Shown here: piece after piece, positions 5,405-50,582 of the stretch
Numbering within the stretch: position 1 is the first letter of the stretch
Layout of the letters: each line of letters begins with the position of its first letter
DNA from: Anaerolineae bacterium
Lineage (GTDB): Bacteria > Chloroflexota > Anaerolineae > UBA4142 > SHND01
Direction of reading: 5' to 3'
DNA length: 53,785 nt
Assembly: GCA_022072245.1 (NCBI GenBank)
Contig: JAJVIA010000008.1
Coordinates: forward strand, 22,871 to 76,655
Program-made: the position numbers and the translations under genes
The notes under the pieces: model-generated
Seen by the model: the letters and a program-made list of their open reading frames with translations, nothing else
Database searches by the model: none
What the model was told of the DNA's origin: nothing

Positions 5405-6778
5405 ATGAATCCTTTATTACGTCACATTGGGCTTGGGCTTGTTCTCGGCGCGGCGTTGCTCTTTTGGAATGGTTGGAATTCCGCCCCGCTCGCGCACGCC
5501 GACGCCGACGCCTGTCAACTCGTCTGGAATCATGTCCACGCGCCCCAAGTCAGCGCGCAAGATATTTTGTATAGCGTTCACGCGCTGAACGCGAATGACG
5601 TTTGGGCAGTCGGCAGCGCGGACGGCGCGACCTTGACCGCGCATTGGGACGGGAGCGCGTGGAACATCGTCGCGAGTCCGAACGCCGCATCCGGCGCGAA
5701 TGAATTGCGCGCGGTGTACGGCAGCGCCGCGAATGATGTTTGGGCGGTCGGACACAATCGCATTTCGGACACTGAAACGCGCGCGCTGCTTTTGCATTGG
5801 GACGGCAGCGCATGGAATATGCTTCCCGCGCCGCTTGGCAACGTCAATCACGCGCTTGCCGCCATTGACGGTTTGAACGCCAATAACGTCTGGGCGGTCG
5901 GCTGGTATCAAGACGGCAGCGCCACAAAAAATCTCGTCCTGCATTGGGACGGCAATACGTGGACTCAAGTTGCCGCCGATACGCCGCCGCAAACGCTTGG
6001 CGGTTTGGACGCCATTGATGTTTTTGCGCCAAATGATATTTGGGCGGCTGGCGCGGGCATTTATCATTGGAACGGCAGCGCGTGGCAAAGACAATCCGAC
6101 GTTACGGTTCAGGGTCTCGCGGCGTTCGCGCCCAACGATGTTTGGTTTGTCGAGCAAAACATGAACGGATTTTTGCATTGGAACGGCAAACATTGGAAAG
6201 TTTTTCCGCCGGGCGCATCACCCTATCTCAACGGATTTGTCGCCATTGACGGCGCGGCAGCCAATAATTTGTACGCCATCGGCAGCGCGTACGCGCACGG
6301 TTCGCTGGGCGTGATTCAACACTTTAACGGCAAAGCGTGGCAAGAGATTCCTTCGCCGGCAGAGGCGCGGAATACGTATCTCAACGATTTGAGCGTGGTC
6401 TCGGCCGCCGAGCTGTGGGTCGTCGGTTCGTTTAATAGTTTCTTGCCGCCGCCCAATGCGGGCAGCGAAATTTTGCACGGCGTCATGAATTGCGACGCGC
6501 CGCCCGCCAAAGCGCCGACCTTGCTTACGCCGTCCAATTCGAGTACGGTCACGCAGCGGCGTCCCGTTTTGATGTGGCGCGCGCTGAAAAATGCGACGTC
6601 CTATCGCGTCCAAATCCGCGAGACAGTCGGCGATTGGAAAACGCAAGCGGATGTCAACGACACACAATACAAGACGCCCCGACTCAAATTCAACACGCAA
6701 TATAGCTGGCGCGTCCGCGCGTGCAATCCGGCGGGCTGCGGCGCGTGGAGCGATTATTTTACGTTCACGCTGAAATAG
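5405..6778 (+). CDS. Secreted seven-repeat beta-propeller protein with C-terminal Fn3-like domain
   Basis: A 457-residue exported protein. It has a signal peptide (hydrophobic run at residues 8-22, likely cleavage near AHADA). Seven repeats follow, starting near residues 64, 110, 160, 210, 244, 287 and 336. Each has a core like NDVWAVG and most end in HWDGSAW; the pattern fits a seven-bladed propeller. The last blade lacks the HWxGxxW strand, and residues 37-50 could close the ring. Cys37 and Cys363 flank the propeller and could form a disulfide. Residues 370-457 resemble an Fn3-type sandwich (TPSNSSTV...YSWRVRACNPAGCGAWS). No catalytic signature is seen, so it probably binds glycan or protein outside the cell. 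It is the only plus-strand gene inside the locus, and its 3' end overlaps the convergent GT4 gene by 14 bp. Confidence 0.8.
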   Translation: MNPLLRHIGLGLVLGAALLFWNGWNSAPLAHADADACQLVWNHVHAPQVSAQDILYSVHALNANDVWAVGSADGATLTAHWDGSAWNIVASPNAASGANELRAVYGSAANDVWAVGHNRISDTETRALLLHWDGSAWNMLPAPLGNVNHALAAIDGLNANNVWAVGWYQDGSATKNLVLHWDGNTWTQVAADTPPQTLGGLDAIDVFAPNDIWAAGAGIYHWNGSAWQRQSDVTVQGLAAFAPNDVWFVEQNMNGFLHWNGKHWKVFPPGASPYLNGFVAIDGAAANNLYAIGSAYAHGSLGVIQHFNGKAWQEIPSPAEARNTYLNDLSVVSAAELWVVGSFNSFLPPPNAGSEILHGVMNCDAPPAKAPTLLTPSNSSTVTQRRPVLMWRALKNATSYRVQIRETVGDWKTQADVNDTQYKTPRLKFNTQYSWRVRACNPAGCGAWSDYFTFTLK

Positions 6779-9045: not shown

Positions 9046-10196
9046 GCGGCGGCAAGCAATTGCGCGTACAAGGTTTGTAGCTGTTTCACGCGTTCAGCCA
9101 ACGTAAAATACTCGAGTACGCGCGCGCGTCCGTTCGCGCCCAGCCGTTGACGCAAGGCGGCGTCCGCGAGCAAAGCGTTGACGCGCGCCGCAAGCGCGGC
9201 GGGATCGCGCGGCGGAATCAAAAAACCGGTTTCGCCATCAACCATCGTTTCCAAAGGTCCGCCGACGTTCGTACTCACGACCGGAATGCCGCACGCCATC
9301 GCTTCGATATTCGCCACGCCGAACGATTCAAAATCGGACGGACAGACGAGAACGGCGCTCGCGTTCAAAATGTCGGCAATGTCGCGGCGAAAACCGGCGA
9401 ATATCACGGCGCGCCGCAAACGTTCGTCCGCGTTTACACGCGCATAAATTTCGGCGCGCGTCGCGCGCGCGTCGGGGGTGTTGAATTCCGCGTCGCCGAC
9501 GAGCAGAAAACGCGTTTGAGGAAAGGCGTCGAGAATGCGCGGCGCGGCATCGAGCAAGACGGCGTGACCCTTGACGGACTGGAAACGCGCGAGCATCGTC
9601 ACGAGCGGCGCGTCCGACGCGATTTGAAATTCCGCGCGCGCACGTTCCGCGTGCGGCTGCGGCGCAAACGCTAACGTGTCCACGCCGAACGGCAGAACCG
9701 TTACGCGCGCGCGCAAACGCGCGTTGGCGTCCGTGAGGCGCTGCTGAATAGATTGCGTCGGCGCGAGGATGCGCGCGACAAATTTTTCGACAAACGTCAT
9801 TTTCCAACCGCGTTCCACGCTCCACCAACCATGACAGGTCCACACCAACGGCGCGCGCAGCCAACGCGCAACGGGCGCGGCATAATACACAGTCTCTAAA
9901 TCGTTGCAGTGAATCAAAGCGATCCGTTGGCGACGCGCATACGCATAGAGGCGGCGAAAAAAGGACGGCGTAAGCACAGGCAAAAAACCATATTTGAAAT
10001 ACGGCAGCGCGAACGGAAAAATCTCTACGGGTACGGCGCTTGCGCGCAGCGCGTCCACAAACGCGCCCGGTTCCGCGCAAATAACATGCGGCGAAAATTG
10101 CGCGCGGTCGAGCGCGGTAATATCGGCGCGCAGCGCGCTTTCGCCGCCGCCCAAACCGCCAAGCGTCGAGAGATACAAGATATTTTGCGGCGTCAT
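9042..10196 (-). CDS. Family 4 glycosyltransferase
   Basis: A GT-B glycosyltransferase of 384 residues. The N-terminal domain begins MTPQNILYLSTLGGLGGGES with the acceptor-side glycine-rich loop. The C-terminal donor domain includes LVTMLARFQSVKGHAVLLDA and the EX7E site in SDFESFGVANIEAMACGIPV. The start at 10194-10196 shares one base with the stop of the flippase gene (TGATG). A longer frame reading from 10232 lies inside the flippase gene and is rejected. It is first of three consecutive GT4 genes, which presumably add successive sugars of one repeat unit. Confidence 0.92.
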   Translation of the reverse strand: MTPQNILYLSTLGGLGGGESALRADITALDRAQFSPHVICAEPGAFVDALRASAVPVEIFPFALPYFKYGFLPVLTPSFFRRLYAYARRQRIALIHCNDLETVYYAAPVARWLRAPLVWTCHGWWSVERGWKMTFVEKFVARILAPTQSIQQRLTDANARLRARVTVLPFGVDTLAFAPQPHAERARAEFQIASDAPLVTMLARFQSVKGHAVLLDAAPRILDAFPQTRFLLVGDAEFNTPDARATRAEIYARVNADERLRRAVIFAGFRRDIADILNASAVLVCPSDFESFGVANIEAMACGIPVVSTNVGGPLETMVDGETGFLIPPRDPAALAARVNALLADAALRQRLGANGRARVLEYFTLAERVKQLQTLYAQLLAAA

Positions 10197-11758
10197 CAAA
10201 ACCAAATCATCCGCGTCCGCACATTTCGCCACTGTGCGCGCACCGCAGCGACGTTCAAGACCATGCTCGCGCCGACAAAGCTCAAGCCCCCCGCCGCCGC
10301 GCCCAAACTCACCTGAAGCAACGCCAAAATGATTTCATTGGCAGAGCTATTTGCGGCGAGCCATTGCGCGCAGCCAAACGCGACGATGCCGCCAAGCGCC
10401 GCCGCGCACAACAGCTTGAAAAATTCCAGTATCGTCGCGCGCGCGTCTGTCGCGCGCAAACGCCGCCAAAACTCGGTCGCGCCGACGCCGACAAAGAGAA
10501 TGTCGCCAAGCGATGCCGCCAACGCGACGCCGAATACGCCCCACACGCCGAGCAGCGCGAACGCCAACAGGATACTCGCGCCGGACGAGAGCGCGCTCAA
10601 GATCAAGGGCAAGCGCCGCGTCTTGAACGCGGGCATCCCGCGCACAAGCAAGCCGCCCACGCCGCGCCACGGCAAACCGAACGCGAGTCCCGCCAACGCC
10701 AGCGCGCTATAGCGCGTTGCCGTCGCGTCGAATGCGCCGCGCTGAAACAATAATGCGATGAACGGCGCGCCGAGCGCAATCAAAAACGCGGCGATGGGCG
10801 CAAGCCACAGCGTCACGCGCAGCGCGGTACGATTCCATTGCGCGCTCGCCGCGGCGGTTTTTCCTTCCGCCACTTGGTCGGCAAATTCGGGCAGGTACGT
10901 TGTCCCAATCGCGCCGCCCAAAACCGCGAGCGGGATTTCGGCGAGACGCTGACCGTAACCCCAAGCGGCGACGCTGCCCGCGCCCAGCGTTGAAACCAGC
11001 GCGCGATTCACGAGCAATTCGAGTTGACCGCTCAACGCGCCAAACATGTAGGGCGGCAAATACGTCAAGAGCTGCCACACGCGCGGCTGGCGCAGTTGAA
11101 TTTTTGCCGCCACGCGTTTCCAACGCAAGGTGCGCGCGAGTAAAAAAATTTCCAGCGTTATCAAAATCAATAAACGGCCCACCATCAAGCCGCGCACGCC
11201 CTGCTGCAACCATTCTACAAAAATAAAAAACGCCAAGAGGTTCAACAGCGCGACCAAAAAGGTATTTAACGCCGCCGTCGCAAAATCGCGATAGGCATAA
11301 CAAATTCCCAACAGCAAGCCCGCCGTCGCGTAATAGATCAAGCCCGGCAAAATCAAGCGCGTCAATTCCACCGCGAGCGCGCGCGTGGCGGGCGCGAAAC
11401 CGGGCGCGAGCCATTCCATCAACCACGGCAGCGCCCACGCCAAAAGCGGCAGCGCCAGCGCCACCGCGCCCGCGACGAGTAACAGCAGCGACAATGCCAT
11501 GCTCCACGCGTCCGCTTCGCCGCGCTCTGCGCGCGCTTGGATAAACATTGGCGTAAAGACGACGCTCAACGTGGCAAGCATCAGCACATATTGCAAAGAT
11601 TCGGGAATCGAAACGGCGAGCGTGTACGCGTCCATTTGCGCGGTCGCGCCGAACGCGCGCGCGATGAGGATGGTCGTGAAAAATTGCAAGACCAGCGCGC
11701 TAGCGTTGGCTAATGCCAACAACGGCGTCGCGCGGCGAAAAAAATGCAACACAGACAT
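10196..11758 (-). CDS. MurJ/MviN-family lipid-linked oligosaccharide flippase
   Basis: A MOP-superfamily flippase of 520 residues with about fourteen hydrophobic helices. The N-terminus carries the family pattern NASALVLQFFTTILIARAFG followed by MDAYTLAVSIPESLQYVLML, and the first loops contain VFTPMFIQ, both characteristic of MurJ rather than Wzx. MurJ flips lipid II for peptidoglycan. In the middle of a GT cluster this copy is more likely a repeat-unit flippase using the same polyprenyl carrier, although a housekeeping role cannot be excluded. It lies between a GT2 gene (5 bp gap) and a GT4 gene (1 bp overlap). The window's other flippase (42531-44024) is of the Wzx type. Confidence 0.85.
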   Translation of the reverse strand: MSVLHFFRRATPLLALANASALVLQFFTTILIARAFGATAQMDAYTLAVSIPESLQYVLMLATLSVVFTPMFIQARAERGEADAWSMALSLLLLVAGAVALALPLLAWALPWLMEWLAPGFAPATRALAVELTRLILPGLIYYATAGLLLGICYAYRDFATAALNTFLVALLNLLAFFIFVEWLQQGVRGLMVGRLLILITLEIFLLARTLRWKRVAAKIQLRQPRVWQLLTYLPPYMFGALSGQLELLVNRALVSTLGAGSVAAWGYGQRLAEIPLAVLGGAIGTTYLPEFADQVAEGKTAAASAQWNRTALRVTLWLAPIAAFLIALGAPFIALLFQRGAFDATATRYSALALAGLAFGLPWRGVGGLLVRGMPAFKTRRLPLILSALSSGASILLAFALLGVWGVFGVALAASLGDILFVGVGATEFWRRLRATDARATILEFFKLLCAAALGGIVAFGCAQWLAANSSANEIILALLQVSLGAAAGGLSFVGASMVLNVAAVRAQWRNVRTRMIWF

Positions 11759-11762
11759 TCAT

Positions 11763-12650
11763 TCAAAAACACGCGCGGGCTATTTTATGTTTCAAACGAT
11801 GCGCCGCCATGCGCGTTTCAAATAAACCGCGCACCAGCCAGTACGCCGGCGCGCCGAAATGTTTGCGATAGTAATACAAAAAACTGTCCCAATAAATCCG
11901 GTGAAATTTTTCTGGCGCGCGCGCCGCCGTACTCGAGCCGCCGTAATGAATCAATTGCGCGTCGGCGACGTAAAACGTTTTCCAGCCGCGCTGCCGCAAA
12001 CGCAAACACCAATCCACCTCTTCGTGATAGATAAAAAATTGCGGGTCGAGCAAACCGACTTGGGAAATCGCGGCGGCGCGCACGAGCAGCGCCGCGCCGG
12101 AAACCGCATCCACTTGGCGCGTTGTCGCGCGGTCCCATTCGGCATACGTATTCTGTCGCCAAACCGGATTGTTGGGAAACAAACGATTGAGCGCCAGCGC
12201 TTCACAGACGCCAAACGCCAGCGTAGGAAAACGATTGGCAGTGCGCTGAAGCGAACCGTCGCCATTCCACAAACGCGGACCGCACGCGCCCGCGTCGGGA
12301 TGCGCGTCCATGAACGCAATCAGAGTATCCAAACAGCGGGGCAAAAGTTTGGTGTCCTCGTTGAGGATCAAGAGATAACGGCCCGCGCCACATTCCAACG
12401 CGCGATTGTGACTTGCGGCGAAACCGGCGCGCGTTTCATTTTCCAAAAGCGTGACTTGGGGAAATTCGCGCTGCACCCGCGCGGCGCTGCCGTCGGTGGA
12501 GGCATTGTCCACCACAATCACTTGCATTTGGGCGCGCGTCGTTTCAAACAGCGAATACAGACAAGTTTGGAGAAGGTCGCGATTGTTGGTATTGACAATC
12601 GAGATTGTCACATCGGGCGGCGCGGCGCGCTCAGGGGTTGACGACGACAT
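11763..12650 (-). CDS. Family 2 glycosyltransferase
   Basis: A GT-A glycosyltransferase of about 295 residues. Visible features are the N-terminal nucleotide site VTISIVNTNNRDLLQTCL, the metal-binding region LLILNEDTKLLP (near residue 100), and the acceptor segment FFIYHEEVDWCLRLRQRGW (near residue 205) of WbbL-like enzymes. The C-terminal basic amphipathic tail suggests peripheral membrane attachment. The ATG at 12648-12650 gives a 20-bp overlap with the end of the upstream glycoside hydrolase; longer starts would extend further into that gene. Its position directly after three secreted hydrolases and before a flippase ties the hydrolases to this block's polysaccharide. Confidence 0.9.
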   Translation of the reverse strand: MSSSTPERAAPPDVTISIVNTNNRDLLQTCLYSLFETTRAQMQVIVVDNASTDGSAARVQREFPQVTLLENETRAGFAASHNRALECGAGRYLLILNEDTKLLPRCLDTLIAFMDAHPDAGACGPRLWNGDGSLQRTANRFPTLAFGVCEALALNRLFPNNPVWRQNTYAEWDRATTRQVDAVSGAALLVRAAAISQVGLLDPQFFIYHEEVDWCLRLRQRGWKTFYVADAQLIHYGGSSTAARAPEKFHRIYWDSFLYYYRKHFGAPAYWLVRGLFETRMAAHRLKHKIARACF

Positions 12651-14097
12651 ATTGCGGCGAACCATCCAACGCAAGACGAATGCGTCCCGGGCGCGGATTC
12701 AAATCGCCGGCGTGATTGTCGCGGATAATTTTGGCGTTGCCGTACAGGTCGGTCACGCTCAAACGTTTCGCGCGAAAATTCATGCGGGCTTTTTTACGCG
12801 GATACGCGCACGGCGATTTTCCGTCGGATTGCGCGCGATTGGACCATGCCACCCATTTCTTTTTGCCGCCCAGCGTAAAGAGATACGCTTCGACGGATTT
12901 ATTTTTTTCCCACCGTTTACTATACGTCCAGCCGTTCATTTGCTGAAACAGGGTTTGATACGCGGTATAAGAGGGCTTCAAATTTTGATTCACGTCCACC
13001 AAACCGTAATACCAAGTCTTGACGGGATTGTCCACAAAGGTCCACCAAGTCATCAATTGCAATCCGCTCGCCATGCCGCGCACATGCGAAATGGCTAAAC
13101 AACGGCTCTGCCCGTCCGCGCCAATCCATCCCGCTTGCGAATCATCGCCCGTTTCGACCACCAAAAGCGGCATGGCAATACCCGCATCCTGCATCCGTTT
13201 TCGAATCGCGGCGGCTTTGGCTTGGATGCCGTGCGAACCCGCGCCGCTGGATTGTCTTTCCCAATACGGGCCGTAAATGTCGTAATAGGTAAACGCGAGC
13301 GCGTCGGCATAGGGCGCGCCACCGGGGCGGGGATGCGCCGCCATATATTGAAAAAGGTTCGGCAAAAAATGATAATCAAAGTGAGAAGGCGGGAGACACG
13401 TGTAACCGGGGGGACACGTCGGAATATCAAAATCGTCAAAGGCGACCGTGATAAAGAGTTGAGCGTCGGGATTGGCTTGATGCACTGCGTCGCGCGCAAT
13501 GCCCGCCATCTCGGCGTATTCGGCATAATCGGGAACGCCATTGGCGTTCAAGTCGCCGTTCACCGTATCGCCAAAACAGCCGCCGGTGTGCAAATCCACG
13601 CGGCTGCCGTCGGATTCATTGTACAAGCCCCAGCGTTTGATTTGCGGATAACGCGCCGCGAGCGCGCCCACAAATTCCGCAAATTCGGCGCGCAGGGTTT
13701 CGTTTGTCGTATCAATGGGACCACACGCGGTATTTGCCGCCCATGACGGATTTTCGGCAACGTACGCCAGCGGAATAATGTCCGCGCTAAATGCGCGATT
13801 AAAATAAGAGTCAAGCAGCGACCAATTGTAATTGGCGGGCGTCGTATTGGTTGGTTCCACCGCGCTCCAATAAACCGCCGTCCGCAAATAGGGCGCGCCC
13901 GTCGCGCGAGCCAACGCCGTGAACGCGGGATTCGCCAAAGTTACGCCGCCGTCGTCCATTGAAAAAAAATCGGGCGTGATGGGCCCATCGGCGAACGCGG
14001 CGCGCGGCAGCGTCATCAAACTCAAGCCCAGCGCGCCCAAAAGCAACCAGCGCCAAATCGTCCAGCCGCGCAATGAATTATTGAACTGTTTGAACAT
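12631..14097 (-). CDS. Secreted clan GH-A-like glycoside hydrolase (PslG-like), paralogue 1
   Basis: A 488-residue exported TIM-barrel hydrolase-like protein, first of three tandem paralogues from the left. A signal peptide or N-terminal anchor spans residues 14-36 (ending AAFADG). The barrel carries the clan A pair: acid/base in WGLYNES (Asn160-Glu161) and nucleophile in LLVVETGDDS (Glu315). Residues 182-193 form a perfect EF-hand-like loop (D-x-N-x-N-G-x-x-D-x-x-E), which is likely to bind calcium. Cys125 and Cys174 are conserved in all three copies; Cys333/Cys430 and Cys228/Cys234 may be extra disulfides. The C-terminal 90 residues look like a beta-sandwich. EPS-operon hydrolases such as PslG trim or release the polymer, so cleavage of the locus's own glycan is the best guess. 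It overlaps paralogue 2 by 20 bp. Confidence 0.78.
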   Translation of the reverse strand: MFKQFNNSLRGWTIWRWLLLGALGLSLMTLPRAAFADGPITPDFFSMDDGGVTLANPAFTALARATGAPYLRTAVYWSAVEPTNTTPANYNWSLLDSYFNRAFSADIIPLAYVAENPSWAANTACGPIDTTNETLRAEFAEFVGALAARYPQIKRWGLYNESDGSRVDLHTGGCFGDTVNGDLNANGVPDYAEYAEMAGIARDAVHQANPDAQLFITVAFDDFDIPTCPPGYTCLPPSHFDYHFLPNLFQYMAAHPRPGGAPYADALAFTYYDIYGPYWERQSSGAGSHGIQAKAAAIRKRMQDAGIAMPLLVVETGDDSQAGWIGADGQSRCLAISHVRGMASGLQLMTWWTFVDNPVKTWYYGLVDVNQNLKPSYTAYQTLFQQMNGWTYSKRWEKNKSVEAYLFTLGGKKKWVAWSNRAQSDGKSPCAYPRKKARMNFRAKRLSVTDLYGNAKIIRDNHAGDLNPRPGRIRLALDGSPQYVVVNP

Positions 14098-15658
14098 AGG
14101 TTGGATTTTGATTCAATTGCAAGGCGATGCGCCCCGAATCCGGATTATGGTCTTCGGGCGAACCATCGGACACGGCGCGCACTGCGCCGTACATATCGGT
14201 CACATTCAACACATTGCCCACGAACGAAACAGAAATCGGCTCTGCGGACGACGACCAAAGGACTGCGACCCCCGCGCCGTCTTTGTTGAATAGATATCCT
14301 TCGCCGCCCCGAACGTTCAACGGTTGAACAAATTGCGCGTCGCCAAGCAGTTTGGCGACGGTTTGAAACGCGCTGTACGAAGGTTTCGGTTTGGCGTTTT
14401 GGTCAATCAAACCGTACTTCCACGTATTGGACGGAGGAGGAGCGGTATCGGGAAAATCTTGGAACGTCCACCAAATCATGTGCGCGATATTACTCCCCAT
14501 GCCGCGCACAAACGTCTTGGCGAGAAAAGCGCTTTGCGCGTCATCGCCAATCGTCCCCGAATCGTCGCCGGTTTCGCTCACCAGCAGCGGCGCAGCCAAG
14601 CCGTACTGCTGCATCAACTTGGTCAACGCGTTCGCTTTGGCGCTGACGCCCTTGCCCTCGGAACGTCCTTCCCAATACGGGCCATAGATGTTGTAATAAT
14701 TAAAACCCAACAGGTCGAAATATTTTTCGCCGGGCGGCGGCGGATTCGCTTGCATATACGCAAACAGGTTGTCGAGAAACTTGGCATTGAAAATGCCGCC
14801 GTTCCCGCCGCCGGGATAACCGGGCGGCGCGGTGGCTTGGTCAAAATTGTCAAACGCAATCGCGCCAACAACCAACTTGGCATCGGGGTTGCCGGCATGA
14901 AGCGCGCGCCATGCCACTTGAAGTTGAGCGGCATAATCCGCGTAATCGGGTTTGCCATTGCCGTCCACATCGTCGCCGCCAAAACAGCCGCCCGTAGAAG
15001 CCGCCTCGCCGTACGCATTATCGGGTTCGTTATACAACGCCCAGTATGTTACATTCGGATACCGCGCGGCGAGTTGGCGCAAAAATTGGTCGTATGCCAA
15101 CAAATCGGAAACGGGTCCGCATTTTGTGGACGCGCCCCACTCGGTATTGTCCATAATTAATACCAGCGGTTCCAGATTGTTGTCAGTCAAAGCGTGAAAC
15201 GCGCTGTCGGCATAGCGCCAATCGTATTTGCCCTGCGTCGGTTCGACTTGGCGCCACGCGATGCTGGTTCGCACCATCTGCGCGCCGCTCAAAATTGCCA
15301 GCGCGCGAACCTCATCATTGGCGGCGACTTCGCCATTTGAACTGACGCCAAAGTAATGGGTCAGCGGCGGCGCGACGGGGACAGCGGTGGGCGGAGGGGT
15401 CGCGGTGGCGGGCGCGGTAGTGGGCGAAGGAAGCGCGGTGGCGCGTTCTGTCGGCGGCGCTTGCGTGGGCAAAGAGGGCGCGGCGGTGGGCGAAGAAAGC
15501 GCAGTGGGTGTGTCCGGGAGCGCGGTGGGCGAAGAAAGCGCGGTGGGCGATTCAGACGCTTGCGGCGGCGCCAGGACAACAGGCGTGGAGGGCGCAGCGC
15601 ACGCGACCACAATGCTCAAACACGCGATACATGCTGTGAATAAAAGAGTACGAACCAA
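14078..15658 (-). CDS. Lipoprotein clan GH-A-like glycoside hydrolase (PslG-like), paralogue 2
   Basis: A 526-residue paralogue anchored as a lipoprotein. A hydrophobic signal ends in the lipobox VVAC (Cys20), followed by a Thr/Pro/Ala/Ser-rich linker of about 75 residues (to residue 98) made of degenerate SPTALPDTPTA-like units. The catalytic barrel has ALYNEPDN (Asn210-Glu211) and LLVSETGDDS (Glu362). An EF-hand-like loop D-x-D-x-N-G-x-x-D-x-x-D occupies residues 230-241. The Cys pair at 180/225 is conserved, but the second pair (Cys333/Cys430 of paralogue 1) is missing from both positions. The start is TTG at 15656-15658, with a GAGGAAG Shine-Dalgarno upstream. Surface tethering distinguishes it from its neighbours. 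The repeats in the linker are coding, not a DNA repeat array. Confidence 0.78.
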   Translation of the reverse strand: MVRTLLFTACIACLSIVVACAAPSTPVVLAPPQASESPTALSSPTALPDTPTALSSPTAAPSLPTQAPPTERATALPSPTTAPATATPPPTAVPVAPPLTHYFGVSSNGEVAANDEVRALAILSGAQMVRTSIAWRQVEPTQGKYDWRYADSAFHALTDNNLEPLVLIMDNTEWGASTKCGPVSDLLAYDQFLRQLAARYPNVTYWALYNEPDNAYGEAASTGGCFGGDDVDGNGKPDYADYAAQLQVAWRALHAGNPDAKLVVGAIAFDNFDQATAPPGYPGGGNGGIFNAKFLDNLFAYMQANPPPPGEKYFDLLGFNYYNIYGPYWEGRSEGKGVSAKANALTKLMQQYGLAAPLLVSETGDDSGTIGDDAQSAFLAKTFVRGMGSNIAHMIWWTFQDFPDTAPPPSNTWKYGLIDQNAKPKPSYSAFQTVAKLLGDAQFVQPLNVRGGEGYLFNKDGAGVAVLWSSSAEPISVSFVGNVLNVTDMYGAVRAVSDGSPEDHNPDSGRIALQLNQNPTYVQTVQ

Positions 15659-15699
15659 AAGACTTGCTTCCTCTCTCGAAATATGATGACGCGATGTTA

Positions 15700-17205
15700 T
15701 CAGGGATTGACTTGGACAATCTGTGGGTTGGCGTTCACATTGATAGTGATTTTACCAACGGCAGGGTCTTTGTCCTTTTTACTATTGTCCTGAATCGTTT
15801 TCACTTTGCCCAAATAGCTTACGACGCGCAGCGAAGTGGCTTGGAATGAAGCGGTCGCCGCGTTGCGGGGCCAAGCACATTCGGGTCGCACCCACGGGTC
15901 GGGCGGATTCGGTTTGCTAAAAGTCCACACGACATATTTTTTCAAGCCGCCGCCGGCAAAGTAATATGCCTCCACGCCTTTGAACCCGTTCTTGTTGCTC
16001 CTGTTTTTGGCAAAATCCAAACCGTTCAATTCGGCGGCAAGGGTCTGAAGCGCCGTATAAGATGGTTTCGGTTGGAGATTTTGGTCCACAATGCCGTACT
16101 TCCATGTATTTCTCGGATAGGTCGCGTTATCGGGAAAATCGCGAAAGGTCCACCAAACGATGCCGGATAATTTTGCCGCCGCGCCGCGCACCATTGTCAT
16201 GTTCAAACAACGCGCTTGGGTTTTGGCGTTGATCCAACCCGCATTGGAAGATTCGCCCGTCTCGCTCACAAAGAGCGGAATCGTTGCGATACCGGCGTTG
16301 CTCATCAATTTACGCAAAACTTTGGTCTTGGCTTGAATCCCATAGCCCGACGCTTTCTTTTGCCAATACGGTCCATAGAGGTTGTAGTAATTGAACAACA
16401 ACATGTCCATATACTTTTCGTCGTTAGGCAATGGATTGGCTTTCATGTACTTGAATAAATCGGCGGCGAAATTGGAATTGAACAAGCCGCCTTGCCCATG
16501 CCCGGGATAGTCGGACGGAGCCGTGCCAACATTAAAATTGTCGTACGCCACTGCGCCGCTCGCCAGCCGCGCATCGGGATTCGCCGCGTGTACCGCGAGC
16601 CATGCCGCCCGCAGCATTTCCGCGTACTCGATATAATCGCGGACGTCGTTATTGTTGACGCCGCCTTTGCTGCGCGCGCCAAAACAGCCGCCGGTGTGTT
16701 GATTCAGATCGGTATAATCAAAATCTACTTCGTTGTACGTCGCCCAAACTTGGACCTTCGGATAACGCGCTGCCAGCGCGCCCAGCATATCGGCAAACGC
16801 TTGGACGTCGTTGACGGGGCCACAGGTCGTATTGGAAGCCCAACTCGGATTTTGTTCCAAATACACAATCGGCGAGAGGTCCGCCGCCAATAACGGTGGG
16901 ATAACGGCATCCGCCGAAGCAAAATTGTAATTGCCCGGCGTCGGTTCGAGACTACTCCAATAGACCGAAATGCGTTCCCAATTTACGCCGGTGGCGGCGG
17001 CGAGCGCGCGCGCGGCGTCAGAATTCGCCAACACGCCGCCGTCGTCAATGCCAAACAAACTCGCGGCACCGGTGGTCGCAGCCGCTGGCCGCGCGGGCGC
17101 GCTTGCCAGCACGGGCGCGGGCGTATTCATGGCAACCGCCAAAAAAATCAGCCCCGCCAACCCCAATCCGCGCGCGAACCATTTCTGAAACATTTGTTTT
17201 GTCAT
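15700..17205 (-). CDS. Secreted clan GH-A-like glycoside hydrolase (PslG-like), paralogue 3
   Basis: A 501-residue exported paralogue. The signal peptide (residues 10-36, ending APVLASAPA) is followed by a short Ala/Pro linker. The barrel carries WATYNEVD (Asn158-Glu159) and LFVSETGESS (Glu315). The EF-hand-like loop at residues 182-193 keeps N-x-N-x-x-x-D-x-x-E but has Gly in place of the first Asp. Cysteines 128/174 and 333/443 correspond to paralogue 1. A strong AAAGGAGCG Shine-Dalgarno lies 6 bases before the ATG at 17203-17205. It is the promoter-proximal copy of the trio and follows a multipass membrane protein by 24 bp. Active-site conservation suggests that it is an active endoglycosidase; the substrate is inferred only from context. 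Confidence 0.78.
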   Translation of the reverse strand: MTKQMFQKWFARGLGLAGLIFLAVAMNTPAPVLASAPARPAAATTGAASLFGIDDGGVLANSDAARALAAATGVNWERISVYWSSLEPTPGNYNFASADAVIPPLLAADLSPIVYLEQNPSWASNTTCGPVNDVQAFADMLGALAARYPKVQVWATYNEVDFDYTDLNQHTGGCFGARSKGGVNNNDVRDYIEYAEMLRAAWLAVHAANPDARLASGAVAYDNFNVGTAPSDYPGHGQGGLFNSNFAADLFKYMKANPLPNDEKYMDMLLFNYYNLYGPYWQKKASGYGIQAKTKVLRKLMSNAGIATIPLFVSETGESSNAGWINAKTQARCLNMTMVRGAAAKLSGIVWWTFRDFPDNATYPRNTWKYGIVDQNLQPKPSYTALQTLAAELNGLDFAKNRSNKNGFKGVEAYYFAGGGLKKYVVWTFSKPNPPDPWVRPECAWPRNAATASFQATSLRVVSYLGKVKTIQDNSKKDKDPAVGKITINVNANPQIVQVNP

Positions 17206-17229: not shown

Positions 17230-18237
17230 TTACGCCATCGGCGGCGTGACCGGGCGCGGCGTTTCGCTCCACACCCCCATCAAAACGAGAATTACAACGC
17301 TCGGTATAAAAATTCGCAATTCGCTCACGATACCAAACAAAAATGAAATCAAGATTAAAAACAACGCCGCATACACGAGCCGACGCTGCAACCAAATCGT
17401 CGTCCGCCAATTGACCGCCAACCACAACAGCGGCGGAATGAAAAGCGCTATCGCCAACGTGAGCCAGTTGAATGGCGTGAAATAATCGGTCAGAATTTTG
17501 ATGTCATTTTGCAGACTCGTCAACGCCGTCACCATTTGCGTACTGGAGCCCACCGCGCGCGCGCCGCCGAACGCATAACGCAGCGCTAGCGCCGCCGCAT
17601 AGGGCGCGACAATCAAAATAACGGCGCGGCTGATTTCGCCAAACTGCACGCGCCGTTTTTCATCCAGCGCGTAACAAAACGCCCACAACACGCTCGCAAA
17701 CGCGGCTGATTCACGATTGAGCGCCGCCACGAGCGCAATTCCCAACAAGAGCAGCAGACGTTTTTGAACCGTCGCCAGCGTCATTAACGCGACAAAGAAA
17801 ACATCCAGCAGGTCGGTGGGATGTTCCCATGCAAATTGAAAGGTGAAAATCAAACTAAAAGCCAAAAGCAGCGCGCCGCCCGCCGCCAGTTTGGGCGAAC
17901 AATTGGAAATACCGCGCGCTGCCCACCACATGGTCGCCAGCGCCAAGAACGCGGTCAGCAAACGCAACAAGAGAAACGCATCGTTCGCATCCAACAACTT
18001 GCTCTGGGTCACGGCATAGAGCGCCAAAGGGAACAGCACGCGATTTTGAAACGCGGGCAGGTACATCGGGCGACCATTCAATACGTAATCCTTGCCTTGC
18101 AGTAAATCAAATTGCATCTGGATAATTTCGCCGCGAAATTTTTGGCGGTCGCCCAAATAACTGGACACAAAAACAACGCCAAGCGCAAGGCACGCCACAA
18201 AGACCAAGCTGACGATGATTTCTCGAGTGCAACTCAT
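17230..18237 (-). CDS. Multipass membrane protein, possibly GT-C-like
   Basis: A 335-residue integral membrane protein with about eight hydrophobic helices. After the first helix, a periplasmic loop contains LNGRPMYLPAFQNRVLFPLALYA. The asparagine-arginine segment QNRVLFP and the later LNRESAAFASVLW recall a group of membrane proteins found next to glycosyltransferases and thought to be GT-C-like polyprenyl-sugar-dependent transferases or glycopolymer assembly proteins. I do not recognise a named family with certainty. The ATG at 18235-18237 starts where hydrophobic, family-like sequence begins. The longer frame to 18663 is an Arg/Cys-rich shadow of the neighbouring gene. It lies 11 bp after the large membrane protein gene upstream. 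Confidence 0.7.
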   Translation of the reverse strand: MSCTREIIVSLVFVACLALGVVFVSSYLGDRQKFRGEIIQMQFDLLQGKDYVLNGRPMYLPAFQNRVLFPLALYAVTQSKLLDANDAFLLLRLLTAFLALATMWWAARGISNCSPKLAAGGALLLAFSLIFTFQFAWEHPTDLLDVFFVALMTLATVQKRLLLLLGIALVAALNRESAAFASVLWAFCYALDEKRRVQFGEISRAVILIVAPYAAALALRYAFGGARAVGSSTQMVTALTSLQNDIKILTDYFTPFNWLTLAIALFIPPLLWLAVNWRTTIWLQRRLVYAALFLILISFLFGIVSELRIFIPSVVILVLMGVWSETPRPVTPPMA

Positions 18238-18248
18238 AGTGCGCGACC

Positions 18249-19736
18249 TCACGCGCGATAAAACGGCATAATGACCAGCGCCAAGACGATTACATTGTAA
18301 AGCGCTAGCGCAATGGTCAACGCGCCGAACCATACCAGATAGCGCACGCGCGGAACAAATCCGCGCAAGCCCAACAAAAAGAGGGTGGCAAGCGGAATCA
18401 ACACCGGAAATAAATAGCGCCCTTGCGGGTCGCCGCCCCAGCCCAAATCCCAATAGCGCACTTCGAGCGCAATAATCGCGCCGAGCGCGACGAGAATACT
18501 CGCGCCAAATACAAACAGGACGGCGCGCCGCCACGCTTCCCATTGCGGCAATGTCTTGAACGCAAACCACGCCAAACCCGCAAAGGCAAATACGGTGAGC
18601 GCGGCGAACGCCCAATACGCTTGGACGCCGAGCGTGATATTCATCCAGCCGAAATGCCCCCACGTACTGATAAACAGATATTTGAAATAACTCGCGTACA
18701 GCGGCAGCGCGGCGGGCGACAAAACGCGCGCATACGATTCAAAGGGAAATTGTTCCGTCGGCAAAAACAAAAAAAGGCGCACGATATAATCGTGGAATTG
18801 CGGTTGATTGACGCTCACCCAATTCCACGCAAACAGCAGACCCATCGCGCCGAGCGCAAGCATAATGACGGTCAGCGCGAGCCGAATGCTTTTTTGCGCC
18901 GTCGAGAGCCGCGCGCCGCCCCAATGCGTGAACGCGTACGTCAAAAAAGCCACGCCGAGAATGGGCAATGCGTACAAACCGCTGCGTTTTGCGCCCAACC
19001 CAATTGCCACGCACAACAGCAAGCCCACGCTGCGCGGCAGCGACAAACCCAAGCGGAACACGCGGACAAGAATGACAAACATCCATGCCAGCGCGGCTTC
19101 GACCAGATGGTCGTTCATTATCGTGCTGTGCAAAAATAAATGCTGCGGCAAGAGCATGACAAACACCGGCAGCGCGAGCGCCATCGTCGGGTCGTTGCGA
19201 AACAGTTCACGCCCCGCCACGTACGCCGCCAAAACCACCGCCACATTCAGCAAAATTGAAAGCAAGCGCATCGCATACAACTGCGCCGTAATGCTGCTCG
19301 CGCGCGTCAATTCCAGCGGAATCAAGTACGCCAAGTACGCAAGCGGCGGTTGATGCAGTTGATGCGCGTTTTGCGGATAAATTTTTGCAAAATCATCCGG
19401 CAGCGGCGATTGACCGTCCGGTTTCCATTCCGAAACGCCCCACTTCCAATATCCCACCGCATCCATCGAACGCACAATTTCCGCCATGATTTTTTTATCG
19501 GCGTCGCTCCAACTCACCAACCGCCCTTTATCGTACAAGAGGCGCGCGTATTCATAATGACGCGGCTCGTCCGGTCCGCCCCACGGCGGAATAACCGCCA
19601 AATAAATCAATCCCAGCGCGAGGGTGATAATGGCAAGTAGCGCGGGCGCCGCGCGCAGATTGAACAGCGCTTGTTCGCGCGCGTCCAGCGCGGGGGCGTC
19701 AACCGCCGACATTTCATTCGATGAATTCATAACCAT
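18249..19736 (-). CDS. DUF2142-like multipass membrane protein (putative GT-C glycosyltransferase)
   Basis: A 495-residue polytopic membrane protein with roughly ten to twelve helices. Shortly after the first helix comes IPPWGGPDEPRHYEYARLL, an acidic first-loop motif (D-E-x-x-H) of the kind found in DUF2142 and GT-C proteins, where such acidic residues are catalytic or bind metal or polyprenyl-phosphate sugar. It would transfer a sugar from a lipid donor outside the membrane, for example a side branch on exported glycan. The first ATG (19734-19736) lies only 4 bases past a good -10 element, so translation may really start at the third or ninth codon (ATG at 19730 or 19712), possibly without a leader. 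Function is an inference from fold type. Confidence 0.75.
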   Translation of the reverse strand: MVMNSSNEMSAVDAPALDAREQALFNLRAAPALLAIITLALGLIYLAVIPPWGGPDEPRHYEYARLLYDKGRLVSWSDADKKIMAEIVRSMDAVGYWKWGVSEWKPDGQSPLPDDFAKIYPQNAHQLHQPPLAYLAYLIPLELTRASSITAQLYAMRLLSILLNVAVVLAAYVAGRELFRNDPTMALALPVFVMLLPQHLFLHSTIMNDHLVEAALAWMFVILVRVFRLGLSLPRSVGLLLCVAIGLGAKRSGLYALPILGVAFLTYAFTHWGGARLSTAQKSIRLALTVIMLALGAMGLLFAWNWVSVNQPQFHDYIVRLFLFLPTEQFPFESYARVLSPAALPLYASYFKYLFISTWGHFGWMNITLGVQAYWAFAALTVFAFAGLAWFAFKTLPQWEAWRRAVLFVFGASILVALGAIIALEVRYWDLGWGGDPQGRYLFPVLIPLATLFLLGLRGFVPRVRYLVWFGALTIALALYNVIVLALVIMPFYRA

Positions 19737-19790: not shown

Positions 19791-21212
19791 TCAATACGCC
19801 CCTCTCCCGCTCAACACCGTCGGCACCGTTTTTGCCAAAATCGTCAGGTCGCGCCAGATGGAATAATTTTCAATATAATCCAACTCTAATTTCATCCATT
19901 CATCAAACGAAAGGTCGCCGCGGCCGTTCACTTGCATCGCGCCCGTGATGCCCGGTTTCACCAGCAAACGCTGCCGCTGCAACGGCGAATACTGCGACGC
20001 CAAACGCATCATTTCGGGACGCGGACCGACGAGCGACATGTTACCCCACAGCACGTTGAAAAATTGCGGCAGCTCGTCCAGCGAAGTGCGCCGCAGCCAT
20101 TTGCCGGCTCGCGTCACGCGCGGGTCTTGGCGCAATTTGAAATGCGGCTCGGTCAATTCATCCAGCTTGACCACCTGGTCGAGCAGCGCTTCGGCATTTG
20201 CCACCATCGTGCGAAATTTATAAATGCGAAACGGTTTGCCGTACTGTCCCGCGCGTTCTTGGGTGAACAAAATGGGTCCCGGCGAATCGAGCCGAATCCA
20301 CACCGCCAACGCCAGCATCACGGGCCCAAAAATAATCAAACAGAACGCCGCGCCGACCACATCCAACGCGCGTTTCATCACGCCATTGATGCCCGTAATC
20401 GCAGGTTCGCGCAGCGTAATCATTGGCACGCCGCGCAGCGTTTCGATGCCGGTTCGCACCGTCACCACTTCGAGCAAATCGGGCATGAGCCGCACGCGCA
20501 CATGCCGCTCGCGCAGCGCCAAAATCAATTCCGCCAATTCCGCGCGGCCGCGCGCGTTCTGCGTCAAAAATACGTCGTCAATCTCCCAGCGCGCGACCAG
20601 CCGCATCGTGTCCGCCAATGTTCCCAACACGGGAGCGTCGAGCGCCAACGCTTTAGCCGGCTCGGCGCGGTCGCTCACAAAACCGACCAGCGTATAACCC
20701 TCCCACATCTGCACATGCGCCGCCAATTCCTGCGCCGCCGCGTCCACGCCAATCACCAGCGCGCGACGTGAATCTATTGCCCCCGCGCCGCGCCGCGTGC
20801 GCCACGCGCGCAAACCGGCGCGCCACGCCAACGTCAACGCCACGTCCAAAACAAAAAAATAGGCAAACAGCGCGCGCGAAAACAATTCGACTTTGAAAAA
20901 ATAAAACGACGCCGCGAGCGCGCACACGGCAAACACGCACGCCAACAAAATCGCGCGCGCTTCATCGCGCCATTCTTCGCGGTTGCGGCGTTCGTACGCG
21001 CCGAGAAAATAAAAGACGAGACCCCACACGAACGCGACGAGCGCCAACACGCCCGGCGTCACGTACGCGCGGTCAGGCGTCACGCCAAACGGCAGCAGGA
21101 CGCGCACGCCTGCCGCGAGCGCCATCGCCAGGACCGCGCACAGCACATCGCCCGTCCATAAAAGCAAGCCGCGCCACCGGCCGCGCGACGGCGCGCGTTC
21201 AATCCAATTCAT
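19791..21212 (-). CDS. Polyprenyl glycosylphosphotransferase (initiating sugar-1-phosphate transferase)
   Basis: A WbaP/WcaJ-like enzyme of 473 residues. Four N-terminal helices are followed by the Rossmann-type central domain (RALVIGVDAAAQELAAHV) and the C-terminal catalytic domain. Key motifs are SPGPILFTQERAGQYGKPF, IYKFRTM, the intact Asp-Glu dyad in SLDELPQFFNVL (around residue 377), LVGPRPE and KPGITGAMQVNGRGD. It loads the first sugar phosphate on undecaprenyl phosphate at the cytoplasmic face. Its ATG overlaps the stop of the upstream GT4 by 4 bp (21209-21212). It ends the second block; the next gene to the left has its own candidate promoter. Confidence 0.94.
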   Translation of the reverse strand: MNWIERAPSRGRWRGLLLWTGDVLCAVLAMALAAGVRVLLPFGVTPDRAYVTPGVLALVAFVWGLVFYFLGAYERRNREEWRDEARAILLACVFAVCALAASFYFFKVELFSRALFAYFFVLDVALTLAWRAGLRAWRTRRGAGAIDSRRALVIGVDAAAQELAAHVQMWEGYTLVGFVSDRAEPAKALALDAPVLGTLADTMRLVARWEIDDVFLTQNARGRAELAELILALRERHVRVRLMPDLLEVVTVRTGIETLRGVPMITLREPAITGINGVMKRALDVVGAAFCLIIFGPVMLALAVWIRLDSPGPILFTQERAGQYGKPFRIYKFRTMVANAEALLDQVVKLDELTEPHFKLRQDPRVTRAGKWLRRTSLDELPQFFNVLWGNMSLVGPRPEMMRLASQYSPLQRQRLLVKPGITGAMQVNGRGDLSFDEWMKLELDYIENYSIWRDLTILAKTVPTVLSGRGAY

Positions 21213-23484: not shown

Positions 23485-24503
23485 GAACGACGCCATTGCG
23501 CGCTCACCAACGCGGTCAAGCGCGCGCTTAACGGCAGCGCGCACGCCGCGCCAAGAAACGCGGGCAAGATAAAGACGACGAGATGCAGCAAAATCGCGTA
23601 CGCCAGCGCATCGCTTTCCGGGATACGATACACGCCGAGCGCCAAAATCACGAGATAATGAAATACGCCCAAATTTGCGGGCAGCGCCGGCACGCGCGTG
23701 CCAATTTGCAAAACGACCAAAATAAATATCGCCGCGCTCCAAGGCAAAACCAAACCCAGCGCCAAAAATAAAACGTAATTGACCGCGATGCCGAGCGTCC
23801 AAATCATGGCGGTCCACAGCAAAACCGAAAACGCTTCGCGCCGTCCGCGCAAGTTTGCCAAACTTTCCAACATGCCGCGCGCAAAAGCGGTGAGACGCTG
23901 TGAACGCGCGCCAAATAATTTGACTTCCCCGCGCGCCAAGACGCTCAACAATGGTTCGCGCACGCGGCTGACGCTTGCCAACACAACAACGCCGAGTAAA
24001 ACGACCAAGACGCTCGCGCCCAACGCATCGCGCGCCCATTCCGGCAGCGGCGCGAACGGCGCGAGGACGAGAAACAAAACTAGCATCACAAGTGTATCCA
24101 AAACTTTTTCCAGCGCCACCGAGCCAAACACAAAACCGACGTTCAATTTTTCCTCTTCAGCCGCCAAGAGGACGCGCGCCACCGTGCCAAGTTTCGCGGG
24201 CAACAAGGTATTTAACAGATGCGCCACAAATAAAATTTGCGTCAAGCTCCAAAAATGCGTCGGATACGGCTGCAATAAAATTTGCCAGCGGCGCACCGAC
24301 GACAAGGTCGCGCCGATTTGTAAAATAAACGCCAGTAAAACCCAACTCAATTGGCTTGACGCGAGCGCGGCAAGCGTCGCATCCAAATTCACGCTGCGCG
24401 CAATCAACCAGAACGCGAGCGCGCTCAAGAACGCGCCGAGACCCAACGAAAGCCACGCGCGTCGCGGCTTGGCTTGCTTGCCCGCGTCATCCATACGATT
24501 CAT
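23481..24503 (-). CDS. AglD/lysylphosphatidylglycerol-synthase transmembrane-domain protein
   Basis: A 340-residue integral membrane protein of the UPF0104/LPG-synthase TM region family, with about eight helices. The N-terminal part has LSLGLGAFLSALAFWLIARS followed by SWVLLAFILQIGATLSSVRRW. Further on come the family-like LLNTLLPAKLGTVARVLLA and LPALPANLGVFHYLVILALG, whose proline/glycine-rich turns are diagnostic. Relatives next to glycosyltransferases act in glycolipid assembly or as putative flippases. Both ATG 24503 and ATG 24494 overlap the upstream ligase gene; neither has a clear Shine-Dalgarno, so the start is uncertain by three codons. Its role in lipid-linked sugar transport is inferred. 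Confidence 0.82.
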   Translation of the reverse strand: MNRMDDAGKQAKPRRAWLSLGLGAFLSALAFWLIARSVNLDATLAALASSQLSWVLLAFILQIGATLSSVRRWQILLQPYPTHFWSLTQILFVAHLLNTLLPAKLGTVARVLLAAEEEKLNVGFVFGSVALEKVLDTLVMLVLFLVLAPFAPLPEWARDALGASVLVVLLGVVVLASVSRVREPLLSVLARGEVKLFGARSQRLTAFARGMLESLANLRGRREAFSVLLWTAMIWTLGIAVNYVLFLALGLVLPWSAAIFILVVLQIGTRVPALPANLGVFHYLVILALGVYRIPESDALAYAILLHLVVFILPAFLGAACALPLSARLTALVSAQWRRS

Positions 24504-25776
24504 CGCGCAAGACGCTGCGATACAACACGCCCAAGAACGCAACCAGCATCCACACGACCACGCTCACTTTGGCGCTGACCGCCACCGCATCGAGCATGCC
24601 ATGTACGAGAAATACAAGATAGCCGCCGACGAGACCCGCGGCGAGTAATTCGTTCGGCGTACCGCGCGTGCGCCGCAAGACGGCGATGCAGAGCGCGAAC
24701 ATTGTCGCCACAATTCCAATAAACGCAACGAATCCACCCATGCCATAATCCACCGCCATTTGCAAATACATGTTGTGCGCGTGCGGCAGCGGCGCGTCGG
24801 GACTATTGATAAAAAGCGGATACATCACGGGAACGACTTGGGAAAATGTACCCAAGCCGATGCCGGTAAAGGGAAAATCTTGGGCAATATAGAGCGCGCG
24901 CTGCCACAATTCAAATCGTCCCGCCGCCGTAACGGTGGAATTATCGAGCAGCGACGAATCCACAAGGCGATTTGTTTCCGCGACTCCAAAGAGCGCCGCG
25001 GCGCCAATGAGCAAAACGACGACAATCCATCCGACGCGCGGCTTGAGCCAAAGCGCGCCGAACGCGAAACTCACGCCGAGCCCAATGATTGCGCCGCGCG
25101 ATTGCGTCAGCGCGACAACGAGCGATAAAAACAATGCAATGCCAAATAACGCGCGCCGCCGCCAGCGCGATTGACGCCAACCCCAAAACCAACATAGCGG
25201 AATGACCGGCGCAATAGCGCCCGCGACCAGATTCGGCGTGAAACCGCGCGGATTGAAAATGGAAAAATCGAGTTTGGGCAGATACGGATAAAGTTGCGCA
25301 GGCAAAAATTTTTCAGAAAAACGCAAACCCAATGCGCCGACCAAACCCATGACCAAAGCAAGCGCAATTAAAATCCAGAGCGCGCTTGTGAAACGTTTCG
25401 AGATGGGACGCTGCCCGCTTTTTTTAATTTCGGTTTCGCTCAAACCATTGAGGAGGCCAAAATACAACGCCACGCCGCCAAAAAGTTCGGCATACAATCT
25501 CGCACTGAGCAATGGGTCAATCGAAACCGCCACGCCGACCAAACCCAAAAGCAACAGCAACGCGAGCGGCACATCCAGCGGCGCGGCAACGGACCAGCTA
25601 CCGCGCGCGCTGCGCCGCGCGAGCCAAAAAAACGGCACGGCGCACAACGCGCCAGCCAAAAGCCACAGCGGCAGATTGCTTGAAAGCAAAAGCGGCGCGC
25701 CATAGACCCATAACAGCCAAAATTCATTATCGGCAATCAGGGTCGCGACGCGCCGCAAAAACGAGGTGCGAGCCAC
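24487..25776 (-). CDS. O-antigen ligase / polysaccharide polymerase family membrane protein
   Basis: A 429-residue Wzy/WaaL-superfamily protein with about eleven helices. The core VVALTQSRGAIIGLGVSFAFG is the typical Wzy_C helix start. The large outer loop carries GIGLGTFSQVVP and the signature PHAHNMYLQMAVDYG, whose histidines are functionally important in ligases. I chose GTG at 25774-25776, four bases after the stop of the upstream gene and preceded by GAGAG; a GTG at 25791 is an alternative, and the longer frame is a shadow. It sits between the Wzz-like protein and an AglD-like protein, so it is the best candidate for the Wzz-partnered polymerase. Confidence 0.87.
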   Translation of the reverse strand: MARTSFLRRVATLIADNEFWLLWVYGAPLLLSSNLPLWLLAGALCAVPFFWLARRSARGSWSVAAPLDVPLALLLLLGLVGVAVSIDPLLSARLYAELFGGVALYFGLLNGLSETEIKKSGQRPISKRFTSALWILIALALVMGLVGALGLRFSEKFLPAQLYPYLPKLDFSIFNPRGFTPNLVAGAIAPVIPLCWFWGWRQSRWRRRALFGIALFLSLVVALTQSRGAIIGLGVSFAFGALWLKPRVGWIVVVLLIGAAALFGVAETNRLVDSSLLDNSTVTAAGRFELWQRALYIAQDFPFTGIGLGTFSQVVPVMYPLFINSPDAPLPHAHNMYLQMAVDYGMGGFVAFIGIVATMFALCIAVLRRTRGTPNELLAAGLVGGYLVFLVHGMLDAVAVSAKVSVVVWMLVAFLGVLYRSVLRDESYG

Positions 25777-25780
25777 TCTC

Positions 25781-49945: not shown

Positions 49946-50482
49946 TCACGGACGCGCGTTTTTTTTCCGCACCAGCTGCGCGTCCAATTCTAATGGAATC
50001 AAACGCTCGACGCGTTTGCGTTCCAACCGATGTTCTTCCAGATAACGCAAAAAGACGCGCACCCGTTCATTGGGCGACAACGTACGGTCAAACACCGCAT
50101 CCACGCCCTGAAATGATTCGTCCAAAATTTCAACCGCGTCGCCCGCCCGAAGCGGTTTGCCCGCTTTATCCCATTGCTGCAACTGCGTCAATTGGTCGCG
50201 GATGCGCGCCACATCTTGGTCCGGCACAATCGCCGCTTCGCCGCCAAACCTCACAATACTTTGCAAACCCGGCGTATATACGATGCGTCCAATGCCCCAC
50301 GCCTGCAAGTCATAATGCACAAAAACATAACCGGGGAAAAAAGGTTTCTCGGTTGGACGGTCGCGACGCGGCTGCGCCACCGAAATCAGGGGCAGATACG
50401 TTTCATAGCCCAAATGGGCGAGATTCGTCGCCAACTGTCGTTCGGCGTGAACTTTGGTGTACAGCAAATACCATTGCAGCAT
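49946..50482 (-). CDS. NusG-paralogue transcription antiterminator (RfaH/UpxY/LoaP-like)
   Basis: A 178-residue NusG-family protein. The NGN domain begins WYLLYTKVHAERQLATNLAH and contains the hallmark KPFFPGYVFVHYDL (near residue 65). The C-terminal KOW-like domain begins LRAGDAVEILDESFQGVDAV and departs from the canonical NusG KOW motif, as is usual for specialised paralogues. Such proteins bind RNA polymerase at specific loci and prevent pausing and termination across long polysaccharide or antibiotic operons. This gene has its own extended -10 promoter and is the first gene upstream of a locus of some 45 kb. The true start is ATG 50480-50482, preceded by GGGGGG; the longer frame covers the promoter. 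Confidence 0.9.
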   Translation of the reverse strand: MLQWYLLYTKVHAERQLATNLAHLGYETYLPLISVAQPRRDRPTEKPFFPGYVFVHYDLQAWGIGRIVYTPGLQSIVRFGGEAAIVPDQDVARIRDQLTQLQQWDKAGKPLRAGDAVEILDESFQGVDAVFDRTLSPNERVRVFLRYLEEHRLERKRVERLIPLELDAQLVRKKNARP

Positions 50483-50528
50483 TTTATCCCCCCGCGCGCG
50501 TCGGACGGCGCGCGAAATTCGGCAAACG

Positions 50529-50556
50529 ATTATAACATACAGAAAAAAGTTGCCAA
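50529..50556 (-). promoter_or_regulatory. Extended -10 promoter for the NusG-like gene and probably the whole locus
   Basis: Minus-strand TTGGCA (50551-50556) is followed after 16 bases by the perfect consensus TATAAT (50529-50534), preceded by TGT, which gives an extended -10. Start of transcription would be near 50522, with a leader of about 40 bases. It lies right behind the transketolase terminator. It is the strongest minus-strand promoter seen in the window with the tkt one. Confidence 0.75.
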
Positions 50557-50582
50557 ACCGCACGGACTAGCATTAACCGCCA

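Follow-up and report, generated by a model that had tools for sequence, protein, structure and literature searches.

We analyzed a 53,785-nucleotide stretch of DNA (hereafter, the window) from a bacterium of the class Anaerolineae, phylum Chloroflexota (contig JAJVIA010000008.1 of assembly GCA_022072245.1), which carries a locus for the assembly of extracellular polysaccharide (EPS). Three adjacent genes of this locus, at positions 12631–17205, encode exported glycoside hydrolases that resemble PslG of Pseudomonas; we designate them A, B, and C. Judging by comparison with related genomes, the array consists of long-standing orthologous groups and is not an oddity of the window genome, and these groups appear to reflect an ancient division by cell address that has been retained, with one group tethered and the others secreted. 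It is an open question why an EPS cluster should include a hydrolase that breaks down what the cluster makes. The data on PslG conflict because a single protein is present at two sites; a lineage whose tethered and free enzymes are distinct makes the two roles testable gene by gene. Anaerolineae are considered to give wastewater flocs and granules their structure. A literature search found no description of such hydrolases in Chloroflexota.

The three genes lie on the minus strand and are transcribed in the order A, B, C. Hydrolase A (15700–17205, 501 aa) has a signal peptide, a GH39-like (beta/alpha)8 barrel, and a C-terminal beta-sandwich. Hydrolase B (14078–15658, 526 aa, TTG start) and hydrolase C (12631–14097, 488 aa) contain the same catalytic unit, preceded in B by a lipoprotein signal and a Thr/Pro-rich linker and in C by a signal peptide. 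An earlier note on this DNA, made from the sequence alone, had described three adjacent paralogues with one lipoprotein among them. Its coordinates are exact, and the proteins are true paralogues, since they align over the full length at 43–49% pairwise identity. Its account of the N-termini also stands. A and C begin with a hydrophobic segment and a signal-peptidase-I-like site and lack a lipobox, as expected of soluble secreted forms. B has the lipobox VVAC with Cys20 and, between it and the catalytic unit, some 90 residues of linker rich in Thr, Pro, and Ala; it would be the membrane-tethered form. Gene A starts 25 nt past the stop of the upstream gene, with a ribosome-binding site (AAGGAG) ahead of the start; 41 nt separate A from B, and C overlaps B by 20 nt. 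This spacing fits a single transcription unit. Terminator patterns in the region were not above those of shuffled sequence (43 vs 49).

Structure searches placed the family inside clan GH-A, as had been proposed, with PslG among the top two matches. A profile of 28 homologues compared with the PDB retrieved PslG first (E 8e-24) and the Bacteroides GH39 enzyme 5jvk next (E 6e-23). The fold was modelled for A with AlphaFold from a 28-row alignment (mean predicted local distance difference test score, pLDDT, of 89); a single-sequence model of B (pLDDT 39.5) was discarded, and the model of A was used instead. In VIA alignments of this model BcGH39 (5jvk) scored Z 31.8 over 377 residues and PslG Z 30, while the next matches were GH30 and GH5 enzymes at Z 24.7 and lower. 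Foldseek agreed with this ranking (PslG, E 1e-24). Because PslG and 5jvk lead both by profile and by predicted fold, A, B, and C are assigned to clan GH-A, nearest to the PslG branch of GH39.

The catalytic residues agree with this placement. The Asn-Glu pair (YNE) and the later Glu (ETG) reported in the earlier note occur in A, B, and C and in all 19 hydrolases of the genus, where group D, described below, has the later motif as TEMS, TELS, or SEIS. In the model of A the acid/base pair N158-E159 follows strand 153–156 and the nucleophile E315 stands at the end of strand 311–316, in line with the clan, where these residues terminate barrel strands 4 and 7; both Glu residues are present in 19/19 copies. 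By alignment, N158-E159 of A pairs with Asn164-Glu165 of PslG, E315 with Glu276, and W352 with Phe319, which in PslG stacks on the sugar (residue roles in PslG are from PMC11912335 and PMC9075953).

The genus was sampled by six genomes, the window genome and five others, with 19 hydrolase proteins in total. In all five of the other genomes the array occupies the corresponding position of a syntenic Wzx/Wzy-type locus, so the location inside an EPS assembly locus, also a claim of the earlier note, holds for close homologues in 6/6 genomes. Each genome has three, sometimes four, copies. In a phylogenetic tree they fall into four orthologous groups with bootstrap values of 98–100: A and B (six of the six genomes each), C (four), and D (three). 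Groups A–D form one clade apart from every other Anaerolineae homologue in the tree, including foreign tandem pairs (100/100), and their positions within the locus are nearly fixed. The lipobox Cys is aligned in all six B orthologues, although the B lipobox of genome G005 is imperfect (TNAC), and in none of the A, C, or D proteins. For A, B, and C, the ratio of nonsynonymous to synonymous substitution rates (dN/dS) is 0.19–0.26 when the window is compared with its closest relative. Given this ratio and a lipobox Cys that is confined to B and found in every B, neither the copies nor their addresses are due to chance. The shared groups, the intact catalytic residues, and the low dN/dS indicate that the triplication predates the radiation of the genus and has been kept by selection.

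Two other explanations were rejected. A recent duplication in one genome or an assembly artefact is ruled out by orthologous groups common to six genomes, and dead copies are ruled out by the intact catalytic residues and the low dN/dS. G005 also encodes, outside its EPS locus, an 852-aa fusion of a PA14 domain with a group-A-like hydrolase (L059:9541-12099).

The locus has the genes expected of a Wzx/Wzy-type EPS system in one cluster: an initiating transferase, a flippase, a Wzy-like gene, and a Wzz/Wzc gene. The gene order across the six genomes, with small differences among them, is Wzz/Wzc, Wzy, LPG_synthase_TM-like, two GT4 glycosyltransferases, the initiating transferase, a GT-C-like gene, the hydrolases, the flippase, and further GT4 genes; the stretches read for G001, G002, and G004 stop within or ahead of the Wzy/Wzc part. 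Synteny between the window and G003 extends over nearly the whole window.

The meaning of the two addresses depends on the cell envelope. Omp85 was not found in any of the seven related genomes searched, whereas 7 of 14 control genomes have it, which makes a single-membrane cell likely. LspA is present in all seven related genomes. With a single membrane, B would sit on its outer face, and A, C, and D would be released outside. We infer that A, B, and C are probably exported PslG-type endo-glycosidases acting on the EPS of their own cell, B at the synthesis site and A, C, and D on released polymer. They would make retaining cuts, most likely internal ones, at beta-linkages of the EPS produced by the surrounding machinery. 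B, lipid-anchored and with its barrel on a flexible Thr/Pro stalk, would work where the nascent polymer leaves the assembly complex and could serve chain length, clearance, or release. A and C (or D) would work on polymer that is already outside.

In Pseudomonas, PslG is found mostly at the inner membrane, where the protein and its activity help Psl production, and a periplasmic fraction has been proposed to degrade Psl (PMC6813494). The two addresses of a PslG-like enzyme would here be held by separate, permanently retained genes. More tentatively, the two places of PslG may have been divided by duplication between a tethered hydrolase of the synthesis complex and secreted hydrolases of matrix turnover, an arrangement maintained throughout the genus, with the third copy exchanged as the glycosyltransferase set for the polymer changes; we regard this fuller scenario as possible and somewhat short of probable. 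A dedicated system for remodelling or release of the EPS, as suggested in the earlier note, is plausible.

Several observations weigh against the preferred reading as a whole. The need for PslG in Psl synthesis is itself disputed, according to earlier work cited in PMC6813494. None of the three proteins was named by Pfam or NCBIfam above cut-off, and the gathering score of the Pfam GH39 model PF01229 was not reached (A, 15.2 bits vs 26; B and C, no match). PslG itself was not run against PF01229, so this shortfall concerns the Pfam model and not the CAZy family, and for this reason we write “GH39-like” rather than “GH39”. EPS genes lie near remote homologues in just 7/19 cases, and the active-site face is not separately diversified by group, residue 160 excepted.

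The last point bears on the main rival to the split-address reading, namely that address is of little weight and the copies have come to act on distinct linkages, or on variant repeat units, of the polymer or polymers of the locus. The locus is indeed large, with four initiating transferases, two flippases, and two Wzy-like proteins; residue 160, beside the acid/base Glu, is fixed by group (V/P/S/V in A/B/C/D), and a deletion at strand 5 sets C apart. However, 40 residues, the core active-site set among them, are invariant over all groups, and the positions that distinguish the groups show no enrichment on the catalytic face (1/5, residue 160 being the sole clean marker there). This shared core favours a common chemistry for the groups, without settling it. 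The split between proteins with and without a lipobox, on the other hand, is perfectly kept.

The same rival, like the split-address reading, draws on an exchange in the third hydrolase slot, which holds D instead of C in G001 and G004. In both genomes D is directly followed by an extra PMT_2-type GT-C gene (L058:3683-5353 in G001; L055:5554-7143 in G004) that is absent from the other four genomes of the genus. With six genomes, this is only a hint that the replacement of C by D goes with the extra GT-C gene, and G005 speaks against it, having D elsewhere in the locus without such a gene. Overall, we consider divergence in specificity an unlikely explanation of the array, although a more serious one than those discussed below.

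Other sequence features were also found. Cys128 and Cys174 (A numbering), a predicted disulphide, are present in 19/19 copies. A second predicted disulphide, Cys333/Cys443, occurs in all A and C proteins and is absent from B and D; we did not use it as a mark of secretion, as A and C are sister groups and may share it from a single event in their ancestry. All 13 proteins of groups B, C, and D have, after the acid/base Glu and ahead of the following helix, the pattern D-x-[DN]-x-N-[GS]-x-x-D-x-x-[DE], whose first position is mostly lost in group A and which is absent from remote homologues. It resembles the calcium loop of EF-hands and dockerins, and the loop of B, C, and D may bind Ca2+.

Retaining enzymes of clan GH-A can transglycosylate. 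Instead of being hydrolases, the proteins could thus be transglycosylases that attach the nascent polymer to an acceptor or link chains to one another, and a tethered form beside the polymerase would suit attachment of the polymer to the cell. However, no sequence mark of transglycosylation was identified, and PslG, the closest relative to have been characterised, acts as a retaining endo-beta-glucosidase and breaks down its own polymer (PMC11912335). We find this alternative very unlikely.

The class has many remote homologues (under about 33% identity). Matches at E<=1e-20 were found in 203/296 genomes; this is not a membership count, because many of these genomes have only weak matches to other large GH-A proteins. 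We compared 19 neighbourhoods of remote homologues with 19 arbitrary regions from the same class, calling EPS genes by similarity to the window proteins. At least three EPS genes were nearby in seven of the remote neighbourhoods and in none of the controls (Fisher p 0.004), and a relative of the GT-C gene was nearby in eight and none, respectively (Fisher p 0.0015). The enrichment thus reaches even the remote homologues, in favour of the preferred reading. With EPS genes near the remote homologues in these seven cases only, other substrates evidently occur in the wider family.

This bears on the possibility that the proteins of the array are scavengers of foreign polysaccharides, located in the EPS locus by accident. 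Many remote homologues do lie away from EPS genes, and some of these are large multidomain proteins. Against this stand the fixed position of the array between the initiating transferase/GT-C genes and the flippase in six strictly syntenic genomes and the fact that modules of GT-C and hydrolase genes recur in other families. The neighbouring genes that we examined yielded no identified gene for a transporter or for sugar use. The scavenger explanation appears highly improbable to us, and action on the cell's own EPS is preferred. The earlier note had named two results that would speak against its reading, and neither was cleanly obtained: the proteins are not placed outside clan GH-A, and homologues are not mainly away from polysaccharide loci if the close ones are considered, while the remote ones give a mixed picture.

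The statement of the earlier note that EPS loci usually carry at most one such hydrolase is wrong for this class, because tandem pairs recur beside GT-C genes. Writing GH for the hydrolases and PGT for the phosphoglycosyl transferase, the gene order is PGT - GT-C - GH - GH - GT2 - GT4 in L124 and L125, GT-C - GH - GH - GT2 - GT4 in L061, and GT-C - GH - (LPG_synthase_TM) - GH in L123 and L126; L127 has a pair beside a GT-C gene, whereas no GT-C was recognised next to the pair of L122. According to the tree, duplication took place several times independently in the class, and Anaerolineae EPS loci repeatedly feature GH39-like hydrolases in tandem next to a GT-C transferase. None of the tandem copies in L061 and L122–L127 has a lipobox, and the tethered form is characteristic of the genus of the window. 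The sole lipoprotein-like homologue seen outside the genus is a remote one in G011, of the same order (L069:475-2040), with the lipobox MAAC and a Pro/Thr-rich start; it is possibly an independent tethered form.

The neighbours of the array described here are all on the minus strand. Upstream of A lies a polytopic membrane protein (17230–18243, likely ATG start near 18237) that, among the genomes compared, G004 alone shares with the window, and before it a second one (18249–19736) without a Pfam match of its own. The latter is a probable GT-C glycosyltransferase (DUF2142/PMT-like), because a 30%-identical homologue (L050:7586-9079) matches DUF2142 and PMT_2; its relatives adjoin related hydrolases across the class. 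Farther upstream are the initiating polyprenyl glycosylphosphotransferase (19791–21212, TIGR03025 above cut-off), a Wzy-type polymerase or ligase (24487–25893, Wzy_C), and a Wzz/Wzc chain-length protein with a BY-kinase domain (25781–28156, TIGR01007 above cut-off). Directly after C are a GT2 glycosyltransferase (11763–12674) and the MurJ-type flippase (10196–11758). With this flippase, the genome has about six proteins of the MurJ family, a number that recurs in each of G000–G004, where the EPS-locus copy has the lowest score among the full-length ones.

Several functions are duplicated in the locus. It has two Wzy/ligase-like genes (482–1834 and 24487–25893), two flippases of different families (MurJ-like, 10196–11758; Wzx-like, 42531–44024), and four initiating sugar-phosphate transferases (Bac_transf, at 1831, 19791, 28218, and 33140), as though the locus produced at least two polymers or arose from a merger of two. 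An RfaH/UpxY-like NusG paralogue (49946–50563, minus strand; TIGR01955 88 bits, below cut-off) heads the locus and is likely a locus-specific antiterminator. The lone opposite-strand gene of the locus (5405–6778, plus strand) has weak matches to the Rax2 propeller and fn3 and 61% identity to its counterpart in G003.

Among known systems, PslG of Pseudomonas aeruginosa (GH39, psl operon) is the closest. It shares the clan GH-A barrel with a beta-sandwich, the aligned NE and later Glu, export, and a gene within a Wzx/Wzy-type EPS cluster; membrane-associated and soluble pools are known for it as well (PMC6813494). However, PslG is one product of one gene in two places, whereas the genus has three or four genes with fixed addresses, and identity is 17–20%. 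The genus further differs in the probable single membrane, the lipid anchor with its Thr/Pro stalk, the two invariant Cys, and the EF-hand-like loop. BcGH39 of Bacteroides cellulosilyticus is the best VIA match, with an alignment that runs through the C-terminal domain, but shares 18% identity. The Xylella endoglucanase EngXCA2, which controls EPS length (PMC10653819), and the BcsZ/WssD-type hydrolases of synthase-dependent EPS likewise are self-made enzymes that trim the cell's own EPS; they belong to another system, and it is the array described here that has multiple copies with distinct addresses. The tandem pairs of other Anaerolineae come close in gene order, L124 and L125 being much as in the window, but have no lipobox and fall outside the A–D clade. 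A PslG-type EPS hydrolase is thus a known theme, and the array is a new variant of it, with tethered and secreted copies, rather than a new kind of system.

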